Virus record (IMG/VR): IMGVR_UViG_3300043464_001224
Location: 1-22,175 of that record
DNA length: 22,175 nucleotides
Reading direction: 5' to 3' (one strand)
Origin: a virus
The notes under the pieces are model-generated. The model saw nothing but the letters and a program-made list of their open reading frames with translations. It did no database searches and was not told the origin of the DNA. Shown here one piece after another: positions 11,871 to 22,175 of this stretch. Both the position numbers and the translations under genes were made by a program. Numbering within the stretch: the first letter of the stretch is position 1; every line of letters begins with the position of its first letter.

Positions 11871-12059
11871 GTGAACACGAAACAACTTATTCAGGCTATA
11901 GCCGCAAACATGGAAGCGGGAGCGACCCTGACCGACGCCATGGAAGCCGCTATGGGCTGTGAGCAGTATGATAGAATGGTGGCAGTCTTACTCAGAGCAA
12001 TCCAACAGGGCCGCGATAAAGTAACATTTAACGAAATAATGGAGAATGTATGCGAATAG
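11871..12059 (+). CDS. small helical early protein, unknown
   Basis: The product has 62 residues from GTG 11871, two bases after the upstream stop and preceded by TAGAGGTG as a ribosome-binding site. The sequence (NTKQLIQAIAANMEAGATLT, then DAMEAAMGCEQYDRMVAVLL) is almost wholly alpha-helical and alanine-rich. It overlaps the start of the exported-protein gene by 10 bases, so the two are translationally coupled. A small adaptor or regulatory protein is possible. No family is recognised. Confidence 0.68.
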   Translation: MNTKQLIQAIAANMEAGATLTDAMEAAMGCEQYDRMVAVLLRAIQQGRDKVTFNEIMENVCE

Positions 12060-12379
12060 TATTAAGTCTAATATTAGCAATGCCAATAATGGCAACAGCA
12101 CAAGAATGCGACTCAGTTTGCCAGGTATACCGACAGCACTTTGGGCTACCCGAAACCAATTCACAACCTGCACCATCCTATGGGCTACCTGTTCAACCCG
12201 TATTGCCTGTCCCGCAAGATCGTGGGCCATGGGGGACTGGTTACAGCGTAGTGACTACCACACGGCCTAAAACTAACTTGTTTGACCGTGACATGGTGGG
12301 TTCTGAAACAGTGCAACGGGTGGTTCCGAATGATGGTTTGGGGCAACCAATGCGCGGGCTAGACTTACAAGGTTGGTAA
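12050..12379 (+). CDS. exported small protein with Sec signal peptide
   Basis: The product has 109 residues. MRIVLSLILAMPIMATAQ is a typical Sec signal peptide with likely cleavage after ATA or AQ. The mature part starts with a CDSVC pair, then a proline/glutamine-rich linker (about residues 38-60), and ends in a polar segment without further cysteines. It should be periplasmic. It opens a run of four envelope-directed genes reaching to 13291, ahead of a lipoprotein, a membrane protein and an anchored transglycosylase. The role is unknown; cell-envelope modification or superinfection exclusion would fit an early export cassette. Confidence 0.7.
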   Translation: MRIVLSLILAMPIMATAQECDSVCQVYRQHFGLPETNSQPAPSYGLPVQPVLPVPQDRGPWGTGYSVVTTTRPKTNLFDRDMVGSETVQRVVPNDGLGQPMRGLDLQGW

Positions 12380-12449
12380 AGCACAGTGGGGCGTGGAGGC
12401 GCTCTACGATGCTTAACCAATAATGGGAAGCAACTAGGAGACTAACTAT

Positions 12450-12653
12450 ATGAAAAGTACATGGTATTTGGCGTATATCGCCACCGTTGTCGCTGTCGTA
12501 GCTAATTTGGTCGGTTGTACGGGTATCGAGGCTGGGGGTAAACTGTGGATAACTCGCGTCGATGAACGCCAAGAGTCACAGAGAACGCACAACGTGCCTC
12601 TAAAATGTTACCTGTGGAGCGATTGCACGAAGTCTGTAGAGCAAGGGAGCTAA
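12450..12653 (+). CDS. small lipoprotein
   Basis: The product has 67 residues. A basic start and hydrophobic core (YLAYIATVVAVVANLVGC) end in the lipobox LVGC at residues 20-23, so the protein should be lipidated at Cys23 and cut by signal peptidase II. The mature chain is 45 residues with two more cysteines (KCYLWSDC). The ATG follows CAACTAGGAGACTAACTAT, a variant of the phage leader sequence. An Rz1-like spanin outer-membrane partner is possible by size but the proline content is low; an exclusion lipoprotein is the other option. Confidence 0.68.
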   Translation: MKSTWYLAYIATVVAVVANLVGCTGIEAGGKLWITRVDERQESQRTHNVPLKCYLWSDCTKSVEQGS

Positions 12654-12656
12654 GCC

Positions 12657-12821
12657 ATGATCGATAACATCAAACAATTATTATTTACCCCGACTGGTAT
12701 CATTGTCACGTTGCTCCACGTTGCATTTTTCGTGGGCTTTGTGACCTGTACCATAGGTTTCAAGGTTTACGTGCTTGGCGAGGATCCTGCGGCTATTACA
12801 GCGCCGGTAAAACGACGATGA
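12657..12821 (+). CDS. small membrane protein (possible pinholin)
   Basis: ATG 12657 to TGA 12821 encodes 54 residues, too short to be noticed easily. It begins MIDNIKQLLFTPTG and has one strong transmembrane helix, IIVTLLHVAFFVGFVTCTIG (residues about 15-34), then a short basic tail ending VKRR. Its stop overlaps the start of the anchored transglycosylase as ATGA, so both are probably made together. Single-helix proteins next to signal-anchored endolysins are often holins, but a plain membrane partner of the transglycosylase is equally possible. Confidence 0.65.
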   Translation: MIDNIKQLLFTPTGIIVTLLHVAFFVGFVTCTIGFKVYVLGEDPAAITAPVKRR

Positions 12822-13291
12822 GCCAGGGCTGGATCGTAGCTGGCTTAGTTGCGCTCGCTTGGTATGTCTCAGTGCCCGAAACCGTGGTTTATCACGGGAG
12901 TAGAGTAGCTAGGCGACCAGTCGAGCCAACTAGGACGGTACTAGAGGCTGAAATAGACCGCGCTGCTGATGCCTACGGGCTAAGGCGGGCGGTTTTAAGG
13001 GCCCTGGTGCGCGTAGAATCAGCATTTAATCCAAAAGCAGTGTCACCAGTTGGGGCGCGTGGTGTAGCGCAAATAATGCCGTTTAATGCGTCTCGGTGTG
13101 GTTTGCCGGACGCTAGTAAACTGTGGGACGCCACCTATAACTTACGTTGCGGGGCTAAAATCCTGCGCGAAGAGTTAGATCAGCACGGCGATCTGCATAA
13201 GGCACTAACGGTGTATAACTGCGGTAAGGTTAAATGTGCGGAAGGGCAAAGGTACGCCGCTAAGGTAATATCTTTGTCGAAATTGTACTAA
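12818..13291 (+). CDS. membrane-anchored lytic transglycosylase
   Basis: The product has 157 residues. Residues about 5-19 (WIVAGLVALAWYVSV) form one membrane segment with no clear signal-peptidase site, so the domain is probably tethered in the periplasm or released as in SAR endolysins. Residues 44-157 are a soluble-lytic-transglycosylase domain: catalytic Glu67 in ALVRVESAFNPKAVS, the GVAQIMPFN motif at 82-90, and a YNCGKVKC variant (133-140) of the usual YNAG segment. It cleaves the MurNAc-GlcNAc bond of peptidoglycan. Four cysteines (94, 111, 135, 140) could form disulfides. It closes the envelope cassette in an early operon, which is unusual for a pure lysis enzyme. Confidence 0.85.
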   Translation: MSQGWIVAGLVALAWYVSVPETVVYHGSRVARRPVEPTRTVLEAEIDRAADAYGLRRAVLRALVRVESAFNPKAVSPVGARGVAQIMPFNASRCGLPDASKLWDATYNLRCGAKILREELDQHGDLHKALTVYNCGKVKCAEGQRYAAKVISLSKLY

Positions 13292-13358: not shown

Positions 13359-13589
13359 ATGACATTACTAGAATCAACCCCCGACATGTTGCATTTTGTG
13401 CTTGAACACAAAGGCTTCAAATTTGAGGTGAAAGGCGTCTATTTAGGCGATGGTCGGCTAATACTTGATCCGGTTATTGGCTGGAACGAATTGGCCGTAT
13501 CAGTGAACCAAGACATCGAATCGTTGTACGAAGATCTAGACGAGACAATTTACAACGCTATGCCAGAACTTTACGAGGTAAACAAATGA
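13359..13589 (+). CDS. small early protein, unknown
   Basis: The product has 76 residues, and its ATG follows AACTAGGAGG by 8 bases, the strongest ribosome-binding site in the window. It is acidic, with a beta-like first half (MLHFVLEHKGFKFEVKGVYL) and a C-terminal helix rich in Asp and Glu (NQDIESLYEDLDETIY). It overlaps the recombinase gene as ATGA, so the two are coupled. It may be an accessory factor to Bet, for example a nuclease inhibitor in the manner of λ Gam, but nothing in the sequence shows that. Confidence 0.68.
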   Translation: MTLLESTPDMLHFVLEHKGFKFEVKGVYLGDGRLILDPVIGWNELAVSVNQDIESLYEDLDETIYNAMPELYEVNK

Positions 13590-14440
13590 GTAACGACATA
13601 ACAACACAAACAAACAATATGGAGATGCTTCAGGCATTGCGCAACACCGTAGCACCTGGCTTGACTGAGCCTGAGTTTCGCCTGTTTGCTGAGATGTGCA
13701 GAGCTACAGGGTTGAACCCAGCTACCAAGGAGATTTGGGCTATCAAGGCTGGTGGACGCTTGCAACTAATGACTGGGATTAACGGATTTTTGCGGATTGC
13801 AAACTCTCATCCGCAATTTGACGGTATGGAAGTGTCATTTGAGTGGGACGGAAAGCAACTTGTATCGTGTACTGTTAAGGTACACCGCAAGGATAGAAAG
13901 TTTCCAAGCGTAGCAACGGCGTACTGGAGCGAATACAGCAAGCCAAGTCCGGTGTGGAAGCAAATGCCGACGGTGATGCTCTCGAAGTGCGCGAAAAGTC
14001 TGGCCATCCGTGAAGCTTTTATTCAGGAGCTAGGCGGCTTTTACACTGCTGAGGAAATGCCAAGCAGCTTTGCAGCGCCTACTCCACAAGCCCCAGAAGG
14101 TATGGAGACGGTAGTTAGCTCTAAGACCGGCGAAGTGCTTGGGTATAAAGGCAAGGACGTAACCTTGGACGGCGTAGAGGGTGTAGAGGTTATTGAGGAG
14201 GAAGGCCTTGAAGTTGCGCCAGAAGCAGCAGAGGAGCCTAACAGGCCAAGAAAGGCTATGCCAACTTTTTATGACGTACGCAAGTTGACAGGTAAACAGC
14301 TAGAAAAGGCCGTTGATTATTTAGAGAGCTGTAACGCAAAACTAATTATTACAGGCGTGTACCGCGCTCCAATTCGGCTGGAAAAACTAACGCAATGCAT
14401 CACGGAGGATATTAAAGATGAAAGCAAAGCTACGGCATAA
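13586..14440 (+). CDS. bet: Bet/RecT-family single-strand annealing recombinase
   Basis: The product has 284 residues. The core (about 20-170) matches phage recombination protein Bet: LTEPEFRLFAEMCRATGLNP (25-44), ATKEIWAIKAGGRLQLMTGI, NGFLRIANSHPQFDGMEVSF, then MPTVMLSKCAKSLAIREAFI and LGGFYTAEEM. Redβ proteins pair complementary single strands and anneal them during recombination and concatemer formation. Residues after about 170 form an acidic linker and a helical C-terminal domain (LTGKQLEKAVDYLESCNAKL) where partner and SSB binding usually lies. No λ-exo or RecE gene is adjacent; nuclease candidates occur further along the operon. Confidence 0.9.
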   Translation: MSNDITTQTNNMEMLQALRNTVAPGLTEPEFRLFAEMCRATGLNPATKEIWAIKAGGRLQLMTGINGFLRIANSHPQFDGMEVSFEWDGKQLVSCTVKVHRKDRKFPSVATAYWSEYSKPSPVWKQMPTVMLSKCAKSLAIREAFIQELGGFYTAEEMPSSFAAPTPQAPEGMETVVSSKTGEVLGYKGKDVTLDGVEGVEVIEEEGLEVAPEAAEEPNRPRKAMPTFYDVRKLTGKQLEKAVDYLESCNAKLIITGVYRAPIRLEKLTQCITEDIKDESKATA

Positions 14441-17553: not shown

Positions 17554-17861
17554 CGCTTGAGGATTTATTCCCACCAAATCACTTTGCAATGCCGGAGCAA
17601 ATACTCTGGCTTGCGGTGATAGAAAGAGCGCTAATGGATGTGATAGCTCCTACTATGGACATGACAGTAAAACACCGTCTTAGTCTTAATTGGTTTTTTT
17701 TCTCAAAAGCACCAAGGCCGTTTAATTTAGAGTATATATGCGAAATACTTTTTGATTATCCTGACGCTGCAAACGTAGTCAGAAAGCGGTTGCAAGAATT
17801 GCAAAATGACCCTGAGCAAATAGAATTTGCTAGGTCTAAAAGATATCGAGGTTGGTACTAA
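17550..17861 (+). CDS. last early gene; possible HTH-like regulator
   Basis: The product has 103 residues. ATG 17550 overlaps the resolvase stop as ATGA; an earlier in-frame GTG at 17505 is less likely. The chain (PEQILWLAVIERALMDVIAP, WFFFSKAPRPFNLEYICEIL, DYPDAANVVRKRLQEL) looks like a helical protein whose second half has a helix-turn-helix-like pair (LEYICEILFDYPDAANVVRK). Similar small proteins often end phage early operons. A late-transcription activator would fit the place, but that is inference. Its TAA overlaps the TAG of the converging holin-like gene by two bases, with no terminator between. Confidence 0.68.
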   Translation: MTLEDLFPPNHFAMPEQILWLAVIERALMDVIAPTMDMTVKHRLSLNWFFFSKAPRPFNLEYICEILFDYPDAANVVRKRLQELQNDPEQIEFARSKRYRGWY

Positions 17862-18043
17862 CGCTTCTTCTTCTTGTCAACTAGCGACCAAACCTGAGCG
17901 CCACCGTAAAGCAATGCACCAGCAACAACAGGCTCGGCAGCCTTTACAAGACCCTCTGCAGCCTCTTCAGTAACACCGATAGTAAGCAAACTACCTGCAG
18001 CTAGAGTGAGCAAATGTCGGACAATGGAGAGAATGATTGGCAT
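17858..18043 (-). CDS. holin-like small membrane protein
   Basis: The product has 61 residues. Two hydrophobic segments, IILSIVRHLLTLAAGSLLTIGV (split here as IILSIVRHLLTLAAG and SLLTIGV) and VVAGALLYGGAQVWSLV, are joined by a short polar loop (TEEAAEGLVKAAEP). The end is strongly basic (DKKKKR). The RHLLT start and the GGAQVWSLVDKKK finish match the Pam3-gp28-type phage holins as I remember them. Holins form the inner-membrane lesion that starts lysis. It overlaps the cysteine-rich exported-protein gene by 43 bases and is the last gene of the leftward late block. Confidence 0.75.
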   Translation of the reverse strand: MPIILSIVRHLLTLAAGSLLTIGVTEEAAEGLVKAAEPVVAGALLYGGAQVWSLVDKKKKR

Positions 18044-18810
18044 ATTCTGTACCTGGTTGAATCAAATAGGCTTTGTCTATAACGACAATTACGCTGCCGT
18101 GGGTCTATAAACTCCCCGCGTATGCAGTTCATCCATAGCTCCCAATAAAATTGTAGGTCACAGTGCTTGTAATCAGCAACCCATTTATTTAGGTCTACTA
18201 ACTGCCCATCCACCCCGTCTAAATCAACTATACACGGTGCAGATATAATTGGATTTGTTCCGTGTTTTTCACAGGTGTACCCTCGCAAACAGCGTCGCCG
18301 GTATGGATTGTCCACAATGTTGCAATTAGGCAAAGTAGCAGATACAAGATTGGCAAGCTCTCTTCTAGCTGGTTCATAAAGGTCACACTCCAAACAAGGC
18401 GATACATAGCAAGTAAGTTCCTTACCCTCTATGCGGCGCTTAAACTGCTCCAGTATTACTGCAAACCTACGCCTTAACCGACTTTCGGGTTTTAGTGCCG
18501 CTCGACTAGCCGATGCTGCTGTATAGCCCCACAAGGCCTCATAACGCCCGCAGCGCTTGTTTCTCATACACGGGCTTTGTATCAGGTGCGCCCGTATTAT
18601 CTTTGGCCTAGCATCGTTTAAAAGCGGTTCTAGGCACTTGCATTCAGTTCCGAAGGTATTCTCTAGCCAGCTAAGAATAACCTTATCCTGCCCATCGTAG
18701 AGGCTTTTAATGCGGTCACAGTTAAACCCAGGGTGACATATACCTAATAGGCTAGGGGCTTGTGCTTGTACTGTAGCAGTCAATGCTAACAGCACCAAAA
18801 GCACTCTCAT
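18001..18810 (-). CDS. cysteine-rich exported protein, possible lysis glycoside hydrolase
   Basis: The product has 269 residues, and its ATG overlaps the preceding TGA as ATGA. MRVLLVLLALTATVQAQA is a Sec signal peptide with a clear AQA cleavage site. The mature chain has 18 cysteines spread along its length, so it probably folds with many disulfides in the periplasm. Alternating strands and helices (KIIRAHLIQSPCMRNKRCGR, then ELTCYVSPCLECDLYEPARR, then NCNIVDNPY and IVDLDGVDG) suggest a TIM-barrel-like fold with a possible catalytic Glu141 in PCLECDL. I recall related phage proteins without proof of function. Its place directly before the holin suggests a lysis or wall-degrading enzyme. Confidence 0.68.
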   Translation of the reverse strand: MRVLLVLLALTATVQAQAPSLLGICHPGFNCDRIKSLYDGQDKVILSWLENTFGTECKCLEPLLNDARPKIIRAHLIQSPCMRNKRCGRYEALWGYTAASASRAALKPESRLRRRFAVILEQFKRRIEGKELTCYVSPCLECDLYEPARRELANLVSATLPNCNIVDNPYRRRCLRGYTCEKHGTNPIISAPCIVDLDGVDGQLVDLNKWVADYKHCDLQFYWELWMNCIRGEFIDPRQRNCRYRQSLFDSTRYRICQSFSPLSDICSL

Positions 18811-19046
18811 TTTGACAGCGCTCTGTCGAGCTTACCCTCTATCCTATCGAGCCGAATCTTGATGTTATTTAGCTCGCTCTGTAGTACTTGCACCTCTACA
18901 CTCATCCGGTAGCGATTGTCCTGCAACTCCTGCAAGCTGTTTTTTACGCTCCTGTAGTCTAACCCAATAATCGATACAAGCACGCCGATAGCCATCTTGA
19001 TAGCTATGTCTATCCAGTATCGTAATTCTGTAACATCGCCCGTCAT
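18807..19046 (-). CDS. membrane-anchored coiled-coil protein
   Basis: The product has 79 residues. A single membrane helix (YWIDIAIKMAIGVLVSIIGL, residues 10-29) is followed by a 50-residue charged coiled coil (SLQELQDNRYRMSVEVQVLQ, then SELNNIKIRLDRIEGKLDRA). This topology is widespread in phage lysis regions, where such proteins are compared with hemolysin XhlA or with spanin and holin accessory proteins. The start and the upstream stop share one base (TGATG), and its stop overlaps the next start. It is probably part of the lysis set. Confidence 0.75.
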   Translation of the reverse strand: MTGDVTELRYWIDIAIKMAIGVLVSIIGLDYRSVKNSLQELQDNRYRMSVEVQVLQSELNNIKIRLDRIEGKLDRALSK

Positions 19047-19465
19047 CAGTGGACACGCCCCCCTCCGTAAGAATCAATAACAACTAATTCTGCTTCGGGA
19101 GTACCTGCCATTAAATCAAGAAAGCGATTAAACGCTGACCTGCTGGCTAAGATAGCCGATTCACTTCCAACCCTTCCAAACTGCATACCTAACAGAATAC
19201 AACCGTGCGTATCCTTGTGCGTGTTACCAGCGTGAAACAAAATATGGTCACGCTCAGGTACATTCTCTACCTGGTAGGTTCTGCCAAACTTAGGGCTATT
19301 TCTGGGAGCTACCTTATACCTACCAACTGGTATGCAACTAATCTGACGCTCGTTATCACGCCAAGCATCTTCAAGCGTAACAAACTCAGGCATGTCATCG
19401 ACACAGAGAACGCCTAACGTAGCGCCGTTATACTCTGATACTCTGATTAGCCTAAGACGCTTCAT
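19046..19465 (-). CDS. DUF5675 family protein
   Basis: The product has 139 residues. The family pattern is clear: a beta start (MKRLRLIRVSEYNGATLGVL), then TLEDAWRDNERQISCIPVGR, YKVAPRNSPKFGRTYQVENV, then RDHILFHAGNTHKDTHGCIL and LG near residues 80-95. The HAGN..DT.GCILLG segment recalls the SHGC-type active site of L,D-transpeptidases (His then Cys), so a peptidoglycan-related enzyme is possible, but the function of DUF5675 is not established to my knowledge. Its ATG overlaps the chaperone gene stop as ATGA. Confidence 0.85.
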   Translation of the reverse strand: MKRLRLIRVSEYNGATLGVLCVDDMPEFVTLEDAWRDNERQISCIPVGRYKVAPRNSPKFGRTYQVENVPERDHILFHAGNTHKDTHGCILLGMQFGRVGSESAILASRSAFNRFLDLMAGTPEAELVVIDSYGGGRVH

Positions 19466-20620: not shown

Positions 20621-22175
20621 CTATGCTTTTACTTGCTTACTTAATACTTTATTAACGTATAACCTAGTTTCCTGCGGTACTTTCACCGCTTGCATAATGT
20701 TTGCCCAGGTTACACGCTTACCATCTGCTTTAACTTGTTTGATAGCCTTATCGATATTACCTGGCCCCCAGTTATACGCTGCCAGTGCTATGTCAGTCTT
20801 ACCGTACTTATCGAGCATCTGCTGCAAGTAACGGCTACCACCCTCTACATTCTGTTCAGGGTCAAACCTATCTGCAACCCCTAATTGCTTGGCTGTAGCT
20901 GGCATAAGCTGCATCAATCCACCAGCACCTTTAGGGCTAACAGCTTCAGGCTTACCAGCAGACTCAACCTGGATAACAGCTTTAACTAGCGAAGGAGGTG
21001 CATACTTCTCGCCTGTAGGTATGCTTACGTTTTGCTTGCCTACCTTAACGGCTTCAGGTTGTGGGGTAGGCTGTGCAGGAGGCTCGTAACTTTGTATTTG
21101 CTTGAACAAATCTTCAAGCTCAGGAGCAGCCGTAGACTTTGTTGGTGCTGCTATCGTAGGTGCCTCTACATCTTCTGCGCCTGTTGCAGCTATAGCCCCT
21201 CGTTGCAGTGCGCCACCAACATCAAGTTCAGCGCCGCCTAATGCTTCTGCTAATGAAGCAGTGCCACGCAACCCACGACCTGTAATGTTTTGCCCTCTAG
21301 GAGTAGCTAGTCCGCGTAAAGCTAATGCTGAAAGCGCTCCTACCCCTGCGCCTTCTTTTGCGTCAGAACCAGTTAAAGCTCCAATTCCTGCTCCTAAAAT
21401 AGCTCCGCCAGCTAATCCAGCACCGCCAGTAGTGTTAAACAATCTTTGCAGTGCGCCTATATCGTAATCAGCACCAGATGCCTTAAAGTTACGAGTAACA
21501 ACGGGTTCAGCAAGGATTAGCTTTTGTTTTTCTTTGTTTAAGTCTTTTACCTCTGGTGCATACTTTTCAATGTGACGCTTTACATCGCCGTAAATAGTAC
21601 GCCAAAACCCTGGGTCAGACTGCGGGGAGTTTTTCCAATTTTCACCAATAATCTTTTTCTGCTGGTTAAGATAAGTAAGGCTACCTTGTCCTTCTCGACG
21701 CAGCGCATCTTGAAACTCAATTACGTTGTTAACGTATTTATCAACCTGATCCGCTGCTATGTTTTTAGAAATGTAATCAATTGTTTTATCAAAGTTAGGT
21801 GGAGGCACTGGCCCAATCTTAGTTTCAGCAGCTTTGAGAGTGGCTTGTATTGCATCCTCTGTAGCGCTTTTAGCCCCTTGCAGTTCAGCAAACATGGCAC
21901 CTGGATCAAGGCTAGTACCAAGCGTTTTGTTTTTGATTAAATCATCCCAGCTTTCTTTTAACTGCGTACTAAACTCACCGTCTACTGTTTCAATTACCGC
22001 ATTTTTAGCGTTTTTGTAATCAGCTTTAGTTAAGTTTCGCGCTCTACGTTGCAATCCTAATCCCGCTTCTTCCAAGGCAGGAGCAGCAGCGCCAGCAAGT
22101 TTACCTGCGGTTGTAGCTAAACCAGGCCCAACTAATGCGCCTACTAATCCAGTATATTGCGATTCAGGCCCATAT
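20621..22175 (-). CDS. internal virion (ejection) protein with C-terminal transglycosylase, cut by the right edge
   Basis: The frame stays open to the right edge, adding about 33 codons upstream of an internal TTG at 22075, so the true start lies outside the window. The visible ~517 residues have an alanine-rich helical part, a glycine-rich hydrophobic segment (GGAGLAGGAILGAGIGALTG) that could insert in a membrane, a proline/alanine linker, and a C-terminal lytic-transglycosylase domain: LVKAVIQVESAGKPEAVSPK with the catalytic Glu, GLMQLMPATAKQLG, and ALAAYNWGPGNIDKAI. Podovirus ejection proteins carry such domains to pass the cell wall during DNA entry. It precedes the tail fibre gene by 8 bases. 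Confidence 0.85.
   Translation of the reverse strand, partial: YGPESQYTGLVGALVGPGLATTAGKLAGAAAPALEEAGLGLQRRARNLTKADYKNAKNAVIETVDGEFSTQLKESWDDLIKNKTLGTSLDPGAMFAELQGAKSATEDAIQATLKAAETKIGPVPPPNFDKTIDYISKNIAADQVDKYVNNVIEFQDALRREGQGSLTYLNQQKKIIGENWKNSPQSDPGFWRTIYGDVKRHIEKYAPEVKDLNKEKQKLILAEPVVTRNFKASGADYDIGALQRLFNTTGGAGLAGGAILGAGIGALTGSDAKEGAGVGALSALALRGLATPRGQNITGRGLRGTASLAEALGGAELDVGGALQRGAIAATGAEDVEAPTIAAPTKSTAAPELEDLFKQIQSYEPPAQPTPQPEAVKVGKQNVSIPTGEKYAPPSLVKAVIQVESAGKPEAVSPKGAGGLMQLMPATAKQLGVADRFDPEQNVEGGSRYLQQMLDKYGKTDIALAAYNWGPGNIDKAIKQVKADGKRVTWANIMQAVKVPQETRLYVNKVLSKQVKA

Follow-up and report, generated by a model that had tools for sequence, protein, structure and literature searches.

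The window analysed here is 22,175 bases long, comes from an IMG/VR virus record and is probably a viral genome fragment; its nearest isolates differ widely and point to no particular host. The minus strand carries terminase, portal and other late-type genes in the left part of the window, and tail fibre, an ejection-type protein and lysis genes in the right part. Between these two late blocks, the plus strand encodes a RecT-family annealing protein (13586..14440, +), identified by family match and taken as an early marker, a resolvase-like nuclease and four consecutive small open reading frames. As the initial annotation had proposed, all four are directed to the envelope: an exported proline-rich protein of 109 aa (SP; 12050..12379, +), a lipoprotein of 67 aa (LIPO; 12450..12653, +), a membrane protein of 54 aa with one span predicted by hydropathy (TM; 12657..12821, +) and an N-terminally anchored lytic transglycosylase of 157 aa (SLT; 12818..13291, +). 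The signal peptide of SP and the lipobox of LIPO were read from the sequence, while hydropathy segments were computed. TM and SLT share a 4-base ATGA overlap, so that the coupling noted earlier is confirmed, and this overlap is retained in 18 of 20 inspected relatives. Comparison with relatives revealed purifying selection on all four genes; since dN (0.04–0.41) is far below dS (above 1 or saturated), they are real genes and not chance reading frames.

The placement on an early-type strand likewise held up, as the cassette shares the strand of RecT, the resolvase-like nuclease and further genes of early type, with terminase, portal and the late block opposite. This gene neighbourhood suggests that the cassette is expressed early. 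A promoter scan gave no signal exceeding the shuffled background, and tRNA and Rfam scans of the window gave no match. A 62-aa gene overlapping the start of SP (11871..12059, +) is kept in some relatives (L011, L034 and L040) and provides context only, and a 76-aa gene (13359..13589, +) marks the downstream edge of the cassette.

Features of the four proteins

SLT matches PF01464 with an E-value of 3.6e-21 (75 bits versus a cut-off of 21.3). Its motifs are invariant or nearly so, including E67-S68 with the catalytic glutamate of the ES pair, G79-A80-R81-G82 (GARG) and Q85 for the GxxGLxQ-like motif, M87-P88, and Y133-N134-C135-G136 for the YNxG motif, and its AlphaFold model (pLDDT 88) finds the structures of Slt, MltC and MltE in Foldseek. 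Judged by sequence, SLT is a genuine SLT-domain transglycosylase with an intact domain and putative peptidoglycan-cleaving activity, and it would be held in the inner membrane, its catalytic domain directed towards the wall. More distant matches (L049–L056, 26–37% identity) turned out to be other proteins, and the neighbourhoods of L050 and L053 are devoid of LIPO, TM and SLT. A further SLT domain, recognised by domain match, forms the C-terminus of a large late-block protein (20621..22174, −) and is 40% identical to the cassette SLT across 80 residues; this product probably acts in ejection, as the transglycosylase that the phage itself uses for entry.

LIPO is the most conserved of the four proteins. 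Its lipobox cysteine (LVGC, followed by T) starts a mature part of 45 aa at Cys23, in which 15 of the 45 positions are invariant among 38 sequences. The mature part, CTG[IM]ExGGKLWxxRVDERQESQxTHNVPLKCYLWxDC, is nearly invariant in the two phage groups described below, which suggests a conserved partner or target. In E. coli, the Lol rule holds that residue +2 determines lipoprotein sorting (Asp versus other); because this residue is Thr rather than Asp, LIPO is presumably sorted to the outer membrane. Modelling mature LIPO with AlphaFold gave too poor a structure (pLDDT 50) for interpretation, and a PDB search gave chance matches only. LIPO has no match in GenBank phages, and a pattern scan of GTDB genomes found no relative.

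TM, whose invariant residues are K6, T11, G14, H21, G27, T30 and P44, is predicted to lie in the inner membrane. It has no usable match in GenBank phages and no relative in the pattern scan of GTDB genomes. A match in S-SM2 was discarded as chance, since it falls inside a 302-aa protein, and homology to T4 Imm, an 83-aa two-span protein, was likewise rejected (hhalign probability 0.4%, one column aligned). SP is characterized by a conserved core, QPVLPVPQDxGPWGTGYS...VQRVVPND.LGQPM, and a search of GenBank phages with it returned nothing usable. For SP, LIPO and TM, no family rose above background in PHROGs, Pfam, NCBIfam or PADLOC, and the PADLOC HMMs for defence and exclusion families matched neither the four window proteins nor their homologues in T4-like phages. 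The kinds of parts combined in LIPO, TM and SLT are familiar, but their arrangement is new and has no counterpart in the isolate phages or family libraries searched.

Inheritance and transfer of LIPO, TM and SLT

A scan seeded with the window SLT recovered 54 loci, 46 of them close relatives (at least 62% identity), and the order SP–LIPO–TM–SLT is preserved in nearly all close relatives having enough flanking sequence. The order was found in more than 40 related freshwater contigs, and using LIPO or TM as the seed instead led to the same result. A RecT-seeded scan provided a sample independent of the cassette: among 17 contigs with SP upstream of RecT, LIPO, TM and SLT were all present in seven and all missing in ten, with no partial set, while SP was found in every one. 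Because this sample is all-or-none and SP occurs in both classes, LIPO, TM and SLT (hereafter the trio) form a unit, and SP is a gene of the lineage. The expectation that the four neighbours would be co-conserved was accordingly borne out for the tightly co-inherited trio but not for SP as an equal partner, since SP is found without the other three. The trio is accessory in the window lineage; SP, which is lineage-wide, is probably its partner or neighbour in the periplasm, specific to this lineage.

At the empty site of L064, SP is followed by a homologue of the 76-aa gene and then by RecT. In L073, another genome devoid of the cassette, an unrelated 76-aa membrane protein occupies the slot between SP and RecT (L073:7626-7856), and envelope genes may be gained here particularly often. 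Four carriers (L019, L026, L029 and L100) have an extra stretch between LIPO and TM. In contig L042, the reading frame of the terminase large subunit (L042:2384-4666) contains a long internal insertion with the appearance of an intein (CLTGDT...VVSHN).

The trio is also present, in the same order and without SP, in T4-like contigs (L043, L048, L193, L271 and L272; the L193 contig stops inside TM) that encode family B DNA polymerase, UvsX/RecA and a DnaB-like helicase, and whose closest isolates by UvsX are Methylophilales phage Melnitz and Pelagibacter phage HTVC008M. There it lies directly downstream of polB and upstream of uvsX, and its neighbourhood is one of early and replication genes in both phage groups. 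The three T4-like rows of the SLT tree group together as a single clade (support 98/89) beside L041, L045 and L046 of the window lineage, the latter placement having weaker support (90/78) and the root being uncertain. Since the trio sits in two otherwise unrelated phage groups and the T4-like SLT sequences form a clade, the sequences indicate that the cassette has been horizontally exchanged between these groups. The exchange, in either direction, probably happened once here.

The position of the trio in the T4-like carriers is the one taken in phage T4 by imm.1 and imm, directly after gene 43. Melnitz and HTVC008M hold other, unrelated genes after polB and are devoid of the trio there. The site is therefore best regarded as an accessory slot, and the T4 imm parallel as merely suggestive.

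Several further observations concern the T4-like contigs. In L272 (1979-5685), L043 (277-3043) and L193 (1369-3934), two genes encode the halves of the family B DNA polymerase; between them lies a dCMP deaminase gene in L043, an IMPDH/GMP-reductase-like gene in L272 and no gene in L193. The uvsX gene of L043 (5446-7618) is broken by an intein-like insert with a homing-endonuclease-like reading frame, and that of L048 is uninterrupted. The cassette is followed by a gene resembling SAM hydroxide adenosyltransferases (L048:2219-3046, L043 and L271:2077-2877), the match to PF20257 being weak and below the cut-off.

Lysis genes and possible roles in the envelope

The late lysis locus of the window (17858..19465, −) encodes a holin of the Pam3 gp28 family (17858-18043, −), an exported Cys-rich protein of 269 aa (18001-18810, −), a 79-aa TM protein and a DUF5675 protein. 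The Cys-rich protein, located between the holin and the 79-aa protein, is lineage-wide, has no family match and is a candidate signal-peptide endolysin. No classical endolysin domain was recognised in the locus, and the endolysin role would have to be played by the 269-aa protein or the DUF5675 protein, or by an endolysin encoded beyond the fragment. The late locus is kept in relatives with the cassette and, where the late region is visible, in those without it (L064, L065, L068, L073, L074 and L075). Among the T4-like carriers, L272 and L193 encode a Phage_lysozyme apart from the cassette. Because both phage groups possess separate lysis genes and relatives without the trio keep the late locus, the trio is not an obligatory lysis cassette; such a cassette would hardly be missing from 10 of 17 RecT-seeded relatives. 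The separate lysis set recognised by the initial annotation is thus real, and ordinary late lysis does not account for the trio.

The trio might still be an auxiliary or lysis-timing cassette, possibly used under special conditions, with TM acting as a pinholin-like protein, SLT as a SAR or otherwise anchored endolysin and LIPO as a spanin-like lipoprotein of the outer membrane. A small membrane protein adjoining an anchored muralytic enzyme and a lipoprotein is indeed the composition of holin/SAR-endolysin/spanin cassettes, the anchors of SLT in the window lineage are short, with only moderate hydrophobicity (KD 1.3–2.2), and a classical endolysin domain is not recognised in the late locus. 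However, the trio lies on the early strand, in a replication neighbourhood in both phage groups, and is dispensable beside a late holin locus that is conserved without it; moreover, LIPO does not resemble Rz1 and has no i-spanin beside it. SAR endolysins have a weakly hydrophobic, Gly/Ala-rich signal-anchor able to leave the membrane. In the T4-like L043 and L048 the SLT anchor is strongly hydrophobic and poor in Gly and Ala, which, together with the separate T4-like lysozyme and the persistence of the late locus, disfavours the SAR-endolysin/pinholin system considered earlier. We therefore regard an auxiliary role in lysis as unlikely.

Whereas the sequences establish the anatomy, co-inheritance, mobility and separation from lysis of the trio, the function proposed here is inferred. 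For a set that is presumably early, accessory, transferable and located in the envelope, superinfection exclusion or early envelope modification fits best, and we tentatively favour the view that phages acquire the trio horizontally as an accessory trans-envelope module, express it early and most likely use it for one of these purposes. With TM and SLT in the inner membrane, LIPO in the outer membrane and the enzyme acting on the wall between, the three proteins would together form a trans-envelope assembly. This assembly would locally open or remodel peptidoglycan and alter the envelope soon after infection, so that delivery of a second phage's DNA, or its adsorption, would fail.

Small early envelope proteins acting as exclusion factors are known, such as Spackle and Imm of T4 (PMC7677548) and Llp of T5 (PMC9586334). 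The position of imm after gene 43 adds a weak, suggestive parallel for exclusion. The trio has no sequence similarity to the T4 factors, TM being dissimilar to Imm and without a PADLOC match, and it combines an active-looking transglycosylase with a lipoprotein, whereas the T4 factors are a two-span membrane protein and a lysozyme inhibitor. LIPO, in turn, resembles Llp and Cor-type proteins in being a small, presumably early, phage-encoded lipoprotein that would reside in the outer membrane. However, known receptor-blocking exclusion lipoproteins bind the receptor and are encoded beside the receptor-binding protein (PMC9586334), whereas LIPO is encoded in the replication region, is unusually conserved, hardly varying across two phage groups, and is invariably inherited along with TM and SLT. 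A further point against exclusion is that the literature search, in which co-mentions in titles and abstracts were incidental, found no described exclusion system with an active transglycosylase. More specifically, the trio may be an undescribed mobile exclusion (or anti-defence) module in which the wall-cutting enzyme is active and essential in complex with its inner-membrane partner and LIPO, a proposal that we consider doubtful though worth stating.

Alternatively, early wall remodelling may support the virocell or counter a host envelope defence or stress, with no effect on superinfection. The trio is accessory, mobile and presumably early, like anti-defence genes, and LIPO is so strongly conserved that its target in the host may be conserved too, but similarity to known anti-defence or defence families was not detected with PADLOC and no specific pointer exists, which makes this explanation rather improbable. 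The trio could also form a conduit or anchor spanning the envelope, for use in export, uptake or attachment while the infection proceeds and not for exclusion, by a logic akin to that of VirB1 and VirB7. Lytic transglycosylases are commonly encoded with trans-envelope machines. VirB1-type and specialised enzymes share with SLT a small SLT fold adjoining a small lipoprotein and a small membrane protein; the weak NCBIfam matches include the type III secretion transglycosylase IagB, the PDB matches include EtgA, and a proline-rich exported protein, SP, adjoins. Yet no secretion machine is encoded near the trio, neither channel nor ATPase nor secretin-like component, and the similarity of SLT is that of a generic domain, so that we hold a conduit to be quite improbable. 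The related SLT domain of the late-block protein brings to mind early-made components of the virion or of ejection; this reading is nevertheless highly improbable, given that the signal of LIPO and the membrane anchors direct these proteins to the host envelope, that the genes lie away from the late operon and that the other SLT protein, kept in relatives without the cassette, already fills this role.

The trio represents a compact envelope module, common to phages of freshwater metagenomes, which moves from one unrelated genome to another and is apparently not a lysis set. If it excludes competing phages, exclusion would here depend on an enzyme instead of a blocker, and environmental phages would be trading early envelope takeover among themselves. 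The mature part of LIPO, 45 residues long and nearly invariant, hints at a conserved target that experiments could identify. A weak case from one contig concerns a third, unrelated phage (L281), in which a different lipoprotein lies beside an anchored SLT, 42% identical to the SLT of L271, on the early-type strand, with Phage_lysozyme opposite.
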